Source: a virus
Reading direction: 5' to 3' (one strand)
DNA length: 26,735 bases
IMG/VR virus record: IMGVR_UViG_3300049629_001402
Span: 1 to 26,735 of that record
Position numbers and translations under genes: made by a program. How positions within the stretch are numbered: the stretch's first letter is position 1; every line of letters begins with the position of its first letter. The notes below the pieces were generated by a model. That model saw only the letters and a list, made by a program, of their open reading frames with translations. It made no database searches and was not told the origin of the DNA. Positions 22,811-25,912 of this stretch are shown here, piece by piece.

Positions 22811-23538
22811 CGCCAATCAAGAAATGGAAAAAATGGATGGCCGTGGGATGCTCGCACGGCGAACTCATCTGCCCGGAAAGCCGCAAGGCCGTTCTGGATT
22901 TTGCCAAGAAATTTCGTCCAGACTTCCGCGCACACCTCGGCGACTTCATTGACCTCGCCGCCATGCGCGGTGGCGTCGCGTCTGATGTGGACAGCAAAGA
23001 CCGCGCTCGGAACATCGCCCAAGATGTCAGCGAAGGCATTTCGTTCCTTTATGAATTTTCGCCGAATGTCATAATGCTCGGAAACCACGAGGCCCGCTTG
23101 AACCGCATGGCGGAATCCCCCAACGCCGTCCACGCCCACGCCGCGCAGACCGTTCTCAACGAACTCGGAGACTGCGCCAAAAAGCTCAAGGCGAAAATCT
23201 ACCCCTACCACAACACCAAAGGCGTCCACCGGCTGGGAGACCTCGCCATGGTCCACGGCTATAGCTGCAATGTCAGCGCCATCCGCGACCACGCCGAGAC
23301 ATACGGCAAAGTTATCATGGCCCACCTCCACCGCGTCGGGATCGAGCGCGGCCGCCGCATCGACTCGCCCACCGGCTACTGCCTCGGGGCCATCTGCAAC
23401 TTGGACATGGACTACAGCTCCACCCGCCGAGCCTCCCTCGCGCACTCCAACGGATTCGCGTGGGGCTACTACACTGACAACTCAACAACGGTCAATCTGT
23501 GCGAAAGACAAAAAAACCAACCGTGGCTCCTGCCATAG
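22807..23538 (+). CDS. Metallophosphoesterase-like protein
   Basis: A 243-residue protein with the layout of calcineurin-like metallophosphoesterases: GCSHGE (14-19), GDFID (45-49), GNHE (92-95), VHGY (149-152) and AHLHR (172-176). The first motif is normally D-x-H, but here the Asp position is Cys15. The remaining metal ligands (H17, D46, N93, H150, H173, H175) are present. Such enzymes hydrolyse phosphoesters, often in nucleic acids or nucleotides; the substrate is unknown. The loss of the first Asp might change metal binding or make it a non-catalytic binding protein. Coupled by ATGA to the preceding gene. Confidence 0.85.
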   Translation: MTPIKKWKKWMAVGCSHGELICPESRKAVLDFAKKFRPDFRAHLGDFIDLAAMRGGVASDVDSKDRARNIAQDVSEGISFLYEFSPNVIMLGNHEARLNRMAESPNAVHAHAAQTVLNELGDCAKKLKAKIYPYHNTKGVHRLGDLAMVHGYSCNVSAIRDHAETYGKVIMAHLHRVGIERGRRIDSPTGYCLGAICNLDMDYSSTRRASLAHSNGFAWGYYTDNSTTVNLCERQKNQPWLLP

Positions 23539-23798
23539 AAGCCGCCTGGCAAAAAGTCTTCGCCGCCGTCGCCATCGAAGACCCCGCCCAACTCGCGAAA
23601 GAAGGCTGGCGCAACTCCTACGAAATCGCCCATGGCAGCCACCGCGAAAAGCAAGCCGTCGAAAGACAACTCGAAATCGCCGTGCGCAAAGGCGAATTCG
23701 AGAAAAAACAGGCAAAAGTCATGCGGGCCACAAAGGTTCAAAAAATTAACTTTTACAGACCTAAGCCGGGCAACAGCGGGCAACAGCCGCGCAAGTAA
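23499..23798 (+). CDS. Small winged-helix-like protein upstream of attP
   Basis: A 99-residue basic protein starting at GTG 23499, overlapping the metallophosphoesterase gene by 40 bases. Residues about 28-72 (LAKEGWRNSYEIAHG...REKQAVERQLEIAVRKGEFEKKQ) have the pattern of a winged-helix DNA-binding domain: a helix start, a second helix with regularly spaced Arg/Glu, and a KGxFEKK wing. It ends PKPGNSGQQPRK, encoded by the direct repeats at 23768-23787. Its place beside attP would suit a regulator, but its partners are unknown. The start is less certain than for other genes. Confidence 0.6.
   Translation: MRKTKKPTVAPAIEAAWQKVFAAVAIEDPAQLAKEGWRNSYEIAHGSHREKQAVERQLEIAVRKGEFEKKQAKVMRATKVQKINFYRPKPGNSGQQPRK
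23768..23787 (+). repeat. Left putative integrase arm-type repeats
   Basis: The decamer GGGCAACAGC occurs twice in tandem (23768-23777, 23778-23787) about 35 bp left of the tRNA-derived core. GGGCAACA is repeated to the right of the core at 23988 and 23997. Paired direct repeats on both sides of an attP are typical of tyrosine integrase arm sites. Confidence 0.6.
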
Positions 23799-24019: not shown

Positions 24020-25039
24020 ATGAGCACCTTTCTTGTGACACCTTACCCGCAGCGGCCTTCGACGCCTTGGAAGCTGACCATTCCGCAGAAAATTTTTGGC
24101 AAGAGGATCCGCCGTTTTTATCGCACCGAGGCGGAGGCTTGGGCGGCGGGGCCGGGTTTGCTGGAGAAACTTCAGAAAGGTGGGACCGATTCGCTTTCGG
24201 AAGAGCAGGCGAGGGGTATGTCGATGAAGTCGGCGATTCGGGATTACATCGCGAGTAAGGCGGGCAGCTCGGAGCGGCACAGGGAGAAGTTGGAAAAAAT
24301 ATGTGGGGAGCTTTTGGAGGCATTCCCAGGCGCGGTGGCGGCGGTGTCGCCGATGCAGGCGGCTCGGGTCTTTGGAAAGATCAAGGGCGCGCCGACCACG
24401 CGGGCGGGGTGGCATCGATATGCTTCGGGATTTTTCCGGTGGTGCGTCGACATGGAGCTTCTGGACCGAAATCCATTTCGCCGCGTCGTGGCGCCGGAGG
24501 CTGAGAGTAAACGGTCACTGATCTCGGCGAAGGAACTCCGGGCGATTCTGGATGCCACAATGAGCGACGCGCTTCGGGCTTGGTTTTTGCTGGGTGCGTT
24601 TGCGGGGTTGCGGTCCATCGAAGTCCACAGGATGCGGTGGGAGGATGTGGACCCGAAGACAGGACAGATCGAGGTTCGGAGGGAGGTCTCGAAACAATCC
24701 TCGGGCCTGCCGGAACGCATCGTGGATTTCACGGAGCCGATGAAAAAGCGGAAGGATTTCTTCAAAGGGAAATCCGGCCTGATCGTGCCGGCGAAATCGC
24801 TCCGGCTTTATCGGGAGAGGGAGGCTTTGATCGAGCGGCTGAACAACGAGGGCGTGGTTCCGTGGGCCATGCTGCCGGAAAATGCCCTCCGGCACTCTTT
24901 CGCTACCTACCACCTCGGACGGTGCCAGGATGCTGGCAAGACCGCGCACCAGATGGGGCATTCTTCGACGGCGCTCGTTCTCAAAACCTACGCGGTGCCA
25001 TCGCGCAAAGCGAACTGGCGGGCTTGGTGGAGGATTTAG
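24020..25039 (+). CDS. int: Tyrosine recombinase integrase
   Basis: A 339-residue site-specific recombinase that should join attP to the host tRNA-Leu. An N-terminal arm/core-binding part (about 1-165) is followed by the catalytic domain with GLRSIEV (R198), the box II stretch NALRHSF (R291), MGHSS (H314) and the nucleophile KTY (Y324). The usual His of HxxR is Asn288. Chosen start is ATG 24020 rather than TTG 23978, because the region between is occupied by direct repeats. Codon use is G-rich and clearly unlike that of late genes. It converges with the minus-strand regulator at 25073. Confidence 0.93.
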   Translation: MSTFLVTPYPQRPSTPWKLTIPQKIFGKRIRRFYRTEAEAWAAGPGLLEKLQKGGTDSLSEEQARGMSMKSAIRDYIASKAGSSERHREKLEKICGELLEAFPGAVAAVSPMQAARVFGKIKGAPTTRAGWHRYASGFFRWCVDMELLDRNPFRRVVAPEAESKRSLISAKELRAILDATMSDALRAWFLLGAFAGLRSIEVHRMRWEDVDPKTGQIEVRREVSKQSSGLPERIVDFTEPMKKRKDFFKGKSGLIVPAKSLRLYREREALIERLNNEGVVPWAMLPENALRHSFATYHLGRCQDAGKTAHQMGHSSTALVLKTYAVPSRKANWRAWWRI

Positions 25040-25072: not shown

Positions 25073-25348
25073 TTATTGTTTCCTCTTAATTTTGGGCGTG
25101 TAAGTAATAGGAACGGTGGATCGGGCAGTTGGCGCAGTCTCGTGTTTGCTCGCAGGCGAGTCCTGCATCATTAAAAATTCGTTGTGCTCGCGGGTCTTTG
25201 TTTGCTGAACAGCGTCGGCAATGATGGCGGAGATTGAAGCCTTGGATAGCCGGGATTTTTTGTTTTCTTCGCTCTGCTTTTTGACGACCCAGGCGTGGAG
25301 TTCTTTCGGCAGCGAGATGTTCAATTTTTGGTGAGTTTTCTCTTTCAT
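25073..25348 (-). CDS. Ribbon-helix-helix regulator (leftward)
   Basis: A 91-residue protein starting at ATG (complement of 25346-25348), preceded by a GGGAG SD. Residues about 6-50 form an RHH (Arc/MetJ/CopG) domain: strand KLNISLPKEL, helix HAWVVKKQSEENKK and helix SKASISAIIADAVQQ. RHH proteins bind DNA as dimers or tetramers by inserting the beta ribbon in the major groove. The C-terminal 40 residues look disordered and basic. It diverges from a second RHH gene (25521), and operator-like repeats lie near both starts. A repressor role in the lysogeny switch is inferred. Confidence 0.8.
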   Translation of the reverse strand: MKEKTHQKLNISLPKELHAWVVKKQSEENKKSRLSKASISAIIADAVQQTKTREHNEFLMMQDSPASKHETAPTARSTVPITYTPKIKRKQ

Positions 25349-25357
25349 ATACTCCCA

Positions 25358-25370
25358 CCAGTAGCACCGA
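25358..25370. promoter_or_regulatory. Operator-like site O1
   Basis: CCAGTAGCACCGA matches the palindrome CCGGTAGCACCGG of site O2 at 11 of 13 positions. It abuts the SD of the leftward RHH gene, so a bound protein could block its expression. Confidence 0.5.
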
Positions 25371-25491
25371 AAACACCAGCGCGCAAATTTTCTGAAAAAT
25401 AAATTTTCGCCCGCAAACCTAGTGTTCATGCGGATGTCAATAGAAATCTTCGTATGGGTAGAACACCCCATTGACAATTTTTATTGCTTTA

Positions 25492-25504
25492 CCGGTAGCA
25501 CCGG
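25492..25504. promoter_or_regulatory. Operator-like palindrome O2
   Basis: CCGGTAGCACCGG is a perfect inverted repeat (CCGGT / ACCGG) around AGC. It lies 17 bp upstream of the rightward RHH start and 15 bp after a TTGACA (25471-25476). Confidence 0.55.
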
Positions 25505-25509
25505 AGATA

Positions 25510-25522
25510 TCGGTAGCACTAT
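25510..25522. promoter_or_regulatory. Operator-like site O3
   Basis: TCGGTAGCACTAT matches O2 at 9 of 13 positions, with identical CGGTAGCAC core. Its centre is 18 bp from that of O2, and it overlaps the ATG of the rightward RHH gene. Confidence 0.45.
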
Positions 25523-25682
25523 GCAAAGTGCATACACAAAAACCAGCGTGAGCCTCCCGAACGAACTCGCTGAATGGCTCCGCCAAAAAAGCGAGAAAAA
25601 CGGAGGGACGCCGATCAGCCGCTTAATCGCGGCGGCGATTCGCCAACAAGTGAGCAACGAAAAACGGAGGGCGAAGAAATGA
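25521..25682 (+). CDS. Ribbon-helix-helix regulator (rightward)
   Basis: A 53-residue protein, barely more than one RHH domain: strand KTSVSLPNEL, helix AEWLRQKSEKNG and helix SRLIAAAIRQQ. It is similar to the leftward RHH protein in its strand and first helix (SLPxELxxW), suggesting shared ancestry. The start at 25521 is preferred to the longer in-frame extension because that would cross the operator-like sites and begins with an unlikely hydrophobic segment. It is the first of an operon with the HTH gene and small ORFs. Arc-like or Cro-like switch function is inferred. Confidence 0.75.
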   Translation: MQSAYTKTSVSLPNELAEWLRQKSEKNGGTPISRLIAAAIRQQVSNEKRRAKK

Positions 25683-25912
25683 ACCTCTCCGATGTTTACA
25701 TTGATATGGACGAGGCAAAGCGCCTCTCGGGTTTTTCCAGCCGCTCGATCCGCGACTACATCAAGCGCGGTGAGTTCGCCGCCACGATGCCACGGGGCCG
25801 GTGCGGTGGCTGGCACATCGTCAGGGAATCCTTCCTTGATTGGTGGGGCTATCGCAACGCGAGCACCGCGAACCGCACGACGATTCCACAACGCAAAAGG
25901 AGGGCCGCGTAA
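25679..25912 (+). CDS. Excisionase-like helix-turn-helix protein
   Basis: A 77-residue protein with a MerR-like winged HTH: YIDMDEAKRLSGFSSRSIRDYIKRGEF (about 7-33) is the classic helix-turn-helix and wing layout of small excisionase/DNA-binding phage proteins, followed by GGWHIVRESFLDW. Start is in an ATGA overlap with the RHH gene and has a GGAGGG SD. Being in the integrase region, it could act as directionality factor or transcription regulator. The C-terminus is short and basic (PQRKRRA). Confidence 0.7.
   Translation: MNLSDVYIDMDEAKRLSGFSSRSIRDYIKRGEFAATMPRGRCGGWHIVRESFLDWWGYRNASTANRTTIPQRKRRAA

Follow-up and report, generated by a model that had tools for sequence, protein, structure and literature searches.

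How might a temperate tailed phage control the choice between lysis and lysogeny from a locus at which two small ribbon-helix-helix (RHH) genes, and no recognisable CI-like gene, stand beside the integrase? The main lysogeny repressors of the textbooks belong to the helix-turn-helix (HTH) class; among phage RHH pairs the best known is Arc/Mnt, which guards a secondary immunity region. The locus lies in a 26,735-nucleotide stretch of viral DNA (IMG/VR record IMGVR_UViG_3300049629_001402, positions 1 to 26,735; hereafter the window). The reading that we favour, with a probability of roughly 0.58, is that it forms an RHH-based lysis-lysogeny control region in which the leftward gene product, L, acts as a CI-like repressor on three sites (O1, O2 and O3), and the rightward product, R, is a Cro/Arc-like first early product with another target.

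The two genes are divergent and separated by a gap of 172 bp. L (P0001, 25348..25073, - strand) encodes a 91-aa protein, the proposed lysogeny repressor with a role like that of CI or Mnt, and R (P0002, 25521..25682, + strand) encodes a 53-aa protein and stands as the first gene of the early operon, a position like that of Cro or Arc. R matched Pfam RHH_1 at 0.0028, under the RHH_1 gathering cut-off, and the PHROG Arc-like repressor family (phrog_3180) at 1.1e-5, and its AlphaFold model gave PDB fold matches that were nearly all RHH proteins (NikR, CopG, Arc, ParD), with weak E-values. L alone had no direct RHH match in the domain-profile libraries, and its fold model (pLDDT 67, moderate), which has two helices where expected, gave no fold match in the PDB; a PDB sequence search returned ubiquitin artefacts and weak RHH matches for R and nothing useful for L. 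Profile-profile comparison of L with R gave a probability of 97% (E 8.8e-11, 35% identity over 46 columns), and L proteins were matched by the R HMM. The hallmarks of the RHH (MetJ/Arc/CopG) superfamily, namely an N-terminal beta-strand, two helices and an RHH profile, were found in this way for both proteins, in L via the comparison with R. The strand reads K-L-N-I-S-L-P in L of the window and K-T/I-S-x-S, i.e. K[TI]S[VLI]S, in R. L and R look like homologous RHH proteins, the membership of L coming through its profile comparison with R, and the two divergent RHH genes proposed in an earlier, sequence-only reading of this DNA are indeed present as ORFs, R being assigned by Pfam and PHROG.

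That reading had also described three 13-bp copies of a shared palindromic operator near the two starts. All three copies lie where claimed (CCGGTAGCACCGG at 25492-25504, exact; CCAGTAGCACCGA at 25358-25370, 11/13; TCGGTAGCACTAT at 25510-25522, 9/13). The 9/13 copy said to lie over the R start codon is present, but in the direct-repeat register, at 25508-25520, it abuts the ATG with no overlap. About half of 32 aligned relatives have CCAA, CCGA or CCGC where the palindrome has its right arm (CCGG), and the direct repeat TAYCRGTARCACC is kept in the same orientation at O1, O2 and O3 with few departures. We dropped the palindrome as operator because its right arm is unconserved in this way; the perfect palindrome is incidental, and as an operator it is wrong for the window's own lineage. 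In direct-repeat terms O1 is TACCGGTAGCACC (25490..25502, + strand) and O2 is TATCGGTAGCACT (25508..25520, + strand), which abuts the R start codon and lies 18 bp from O1; nearly all close relatives have TATCGGTAGCACC at the O2 position. O3 is CACCAGTAGCACC (25356..25368, + strand), which adjoins the SD of L on its upstream side and lies over the L leader; a weaker copy of 9 bp, GAAAACACC, comes next (25369-25377).

A scan of the whole window for the site with three mismatches allowed gave 14 matches against 9.4 expected, which is not significant. The 172-bp gap contains three copies of GTAGCAC, and only 7 of 5000 dinucleotide shuffles had three copies of any 7-mer; clustering in the gap, rather than the whole-window scan, is the meaningful test of the sites. 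Spacing between O1 and O2 is 18 bp in the window's lineage and 19 bp in the relatives L294-L307. Self-match peaks at a lag of 9 in both site regions (0.38 and 0.40), with lag 10 almost equal at O3, and a half-site phasing of about 9 bp fits RHH dimers that would sit on successive turns of the helix.

Relatives were collected by IMG/VR scans with P0001, P0002 and alignments of both proteins; these metagenomic records are possibly fragmentary. They include 58 distinct R promoter sequences, with a divergent L adjoining wherever the contig extends far enough. No homologues of L or R were found in GenBank phages, and no prophage copy was found in bacterial genome contigs. Related records have about three copies each of the nine-base core RGTARCACC, almost all of them at O1-O3: among the matches listed, 4 of 50 fall outside these sites in the 16 records (about 0.55 Mb) with an L of the window's type, which has Asn among its predicted contact residues (Asn-type). 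In these 16 records the set of putative operators is confined to the L/R switch region. Conservation of the sites in related phages, which had been suggested as a check, holds in the form of the direct repeat, O1, O2 and O3 being kept in every Asn-type relative. As a search pattern CGGTAGCAC-N9-CGGTAGCAC had to be discarded, since most of the IMG/VR matches listed were collagen-like GXY repeats of tail-fibre genes and only those ending CACCATGCAA belonged to the L/R locus. A very frequent nine-mer of such repeats in phage tail fibres, GGTAGCACC (L036-L150), is a trap for operator searches.

Which of the two proteins reads the sites may be judged from how sites and proteins vary together. In the RHH fold, as known from Arc, the DNA-facing residues are those at P-6, P-4 and P-2 before the strand-ending proline. 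The predicted contact residues of R are K-S-S in every lineage; those of L are K-N-S in the window's lineage and L294-L307, K-T-S in L226-L229, and K-S-S in L274-L298, L308-L310 and L233. An Asn-type L goes with RGTARCACC sites in all but a few cases. With the Thr-type L of L226-L229, O1 and O2 are both GTATGACC, still 18 bp apart, and O3 is GTAATACC; O1 of L226 has GTATGACT rather than GTATGACC. With a Ser-type L the sites are inverted GGTAG/CTACC halves. All three sites have thus shifted together from GTAGCACC in two lineages, only where Asn of L has become Thr or Ser, and the R strand is unchanged in the lineages with altered sites. Overall divergence does not account for the change, because the more distant L294-L307 (30-36% L identity to the window) keep Asn and RGTAGCACC, whereas L226-L229, at 48%, changed both. 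The Thr lineage groups next to the window both in an L tree (beta-strand excluded) and in an R tree, which suggests a derived, concerted change; these trees were built from about 40-55 columns and are poorly resolved, and the co-variation sample is small (two residue shifts, about five lineages). A separate observation concerns L308-L310, in which O3 is a long near-perfect inverted repeat, e.g. CTTGGTAGCA-N5-TGCTACCAAG in L308, directly before the AAGGAGG SD; this repeat could also form an RNA hairpin acting on L translation.

Since the sites change with the L strand while the contact residues of R stay constant, it is most likely L, and not both proteins, that reads O1-O3, although the evidence is suggestive in kind. 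The sequence-only reading had both RHH proteins competing for the same operators, following the logic of CI and Cro. Much about the locus would suit such sharing: L and R are homologous, their predicted contacts are close (K-N-S against K-S-S, and K-S-S in both in the Ser lineages), and the sites flank both starts. Across the five lineages, however, the sites vary only with the beta-strand of L, and we now regard competition for shared operators as unlikely, if still the strongest of the rival explanations.

The placement of the sites relative to the promoters gives the favoured reading, with L alone on O1-O3, its regulatory content. A TTGCTT box at 25484..25489 (+ strand) lies exactly 37 nt before the R ATG and is a candidate -35 element of the rightward early promoter. 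TTG is found at -37 in 52 of the 58 R promoters, and in L110/L225 the distance is held by a compensated gain and loss of one base. A sigma-70-like promoter scan returned nothing, with no recognisable -10 box. A leaderless R mRNA, begun close to the R ATG, is possible. The missing SD of R was considered as proof of this; that argument is weakened, because most window genes checked have no clear SD (start codons being uncurated), and the leaderless reading now draws on the fixed -37 box only.

On the leftward side, a block at 25411..25440 (- strand), here called P_L, contains TTGACA (25440-25435, - strand) and an inverted repeat CCGCA/TGCGG (25411-25415 and 25429-25433). This arrangement (TTGACA, CCGCA-N13-TGCGG, then AT-rich bases) hardly varies in any lineage. 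We infer that it is the leftward promoter and a candidate site for R, the R strand being equally invariant, or simply the promoter itself. The arms were also considered as a co-varying palindrome, but they break in L064 and L279, leaving a conserved block of unproven symmetry. The somewhat longer segment 25398-25440, TTGACATCCGCATGAACACTAGGTTTGCGGGCGAAAAT on the - strand, hardly varies between lineages whose sites differ and, since the integrase is adjacent, could besides these roles be part of attP.

From features read in the sequence (the gene pair, the sites, their conservation and confinement, the concerted change of sites and L strand, and the content of the early operon) we infer a scheme for DNA binding, direction of regulation, the target of R and bistability. 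Dimers of L would occupy the GTAGCACC-type repeats O1 and O2, and as these fill the interval from the -37 TTG box to the R ATG, bound L would block the early promoter and shut off R, the excisionase-like gene and the replication genes. At O3, in its own leader, L would limit its own synthesis, an autoregulation suggested by the position of O3 beside the L SD. R, the first early product and a small Cro/Arc-like RHH protein, would have its target outside O1-O3, with the invariant CCGCA/TGCGG block at the L promoter as one possibility. The scheme in its full form, a primary lysogeny switch made of RHH paralogues only, with L co-evolving with three operators, a Cro-like R with a separate invariant operator at the L promoter, a leaderless early mRNA and operators filling the interval from promoter to start, is tentative and, taken as a whole, somewhat doubtful.

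Whether the locus is the main immunity region depends on its surroundings. A tyrosine integrase gene (24020..25039, + strand) is convergent with L; an integrase was matched in 22 of 26 related records, and where positions were compared it lies on the L side within about 2 kb. R is followed by an HTH_17/excisionase-like gene (25679..25912, + strand; phrog_66, excisionase and transcriptional regulator, 1.5e-4) whose ATG overlaps the R stop codon (ATGA), and in a 38-kb relative by genes for a Sak4-like annealing protein, a replication initiation protein and a DnaB helicase. The placing of the RHH pair at the position of the main repressor agrees with the adjoining integrase and with sites that would serve both promoters. 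As the sequence-only reading had noted, no CI/Cro-type HTH repressor is seen beside the integrase: neither Peptidase_S24, nor HTH_3 over cut-off, nor a CI/LexA-type repressor was found in the 26 related records, which are possibly incomplete. A recurrent weak HTH_3 match proved to be a protein of about 180 aa in the rightward operon. This conserved HTH protein (L234:17934-18767, with homologues in L237, L238, L239, L243, L244 and L245; core FAAGLDQLNGKRSQAQVARELGVTRALVSHYV) is encoded at the end of the early operon and is possibly a late regulator or small terminase. A likely verrucomicrobial host is indicated by a ClpP-like protease whose closest match (54%, covering 45% of the query) is in Verrucomicrobia phage P8625, and by the only near full-length integrase matches, to two Akkermansia phages at about 24%.

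We consider it improbable that the RHH pair is an accessory immunity module, controlling an antirepressor or other side function as in P22 immI, with an unrecognised gene as main repressor. In favour of such a module are the identical two-RHH layout of P22 Arc/Mnt, the possibly fragmentary state of the related records and the conserved HTH protein encoded downstream; against it, no S24 or HTH_3 repressor and no ANT domain passed the cut-off in the 26 records, and the operon behind R concerns replication and recombination, not ant. A weak ANT antirepressor match in the window (23519-23779, + strand; E 1.1e-5, below cut-off) lies in a lysine-rich segment with two internal stops and is probably compositional. 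More improbable again is that L is an autorepressor and regulator of excision or replication copy control only, with no part in lysogeny, as in plasmid CopG/omega systems: the half-site phasing resembles CopG-type repeats and bacterial genomes yielded no prophage copy, but the integrase in most records and the structural genes in the window show a temperate phage, and O1/O2 sit at a promoter that serves the entire early operon.

If the favoured reading of L as repressor and R as first early product is true, an RHH-only switch at the main position would offer a compact system in which repressor-operator co-evolution could be tested on natural lineages whose operators and repressor strand have changed together, and in which the immunity groups of an uncultured phage family could be studied; annotators would be warned that phages without a CI-like gene may still be temperate.

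In P22 immI two related RHH proteins are encoded divergently with operators between them; Arc (53 aa) heads the rightward operon, with the ant antirepressor gene downstream of arc, the longer Mnt is encoded leftward, and a separate c2-type protein is the main repressor. The locus described here shares the divergent RHH pair with sites, putatively operators, between the genes, and the comparison with Arc/Mnt was apt in that R, of Arc length, comes first in the rightward operon and has in L a longer partner. It differs in that the rightward operon holds replication and recombination genes and an excisionase-like gene in place of arc-ant (the gene after R is the HTH_17 gene), in that it adjoins the integrase, the main immunity position, with no c2-type repressor found in the 26 possibly incomplete records, and in that the window's lineage has direct repeats of 9/18 bp as putative operators; R has no sequence relation to P22 Arc beyond the weak PHROG match. 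The plasmid repressors CopG and omega likewise bind as RHH dimers to short tandem repeats, each about one helical turn long, and are autoregulated, as we propose for L, whereas here two paralogous RHH proteins lie one on each side of the sites in a temperate phage with an integrase. A search of open-access papers turned up no RHH main lysogeny repressor; the nearest case, YosL from SP-beta, belongs to the Arc-type RHH proteins and promotes lytic development (PMC10516654), as proposed for R; the master repressor of SP-beta, MrpR, is recombinase-like and not RHH. With lambda CI/Cro the region shares a divergent repressor and first early gene, and repeated sites that cover the early promoter and lie close to the repressor start. 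It differs in having the RHH fold in place of a lambda-type HTH repressor with an S24 cleavage domain, hence no obvious SOS induction, and in that the evidence points to separate rather than shared use of operators. The L/R region resembles the CI/Cro switch in layout and is a member of neither the CI/Cro nor the immI family.
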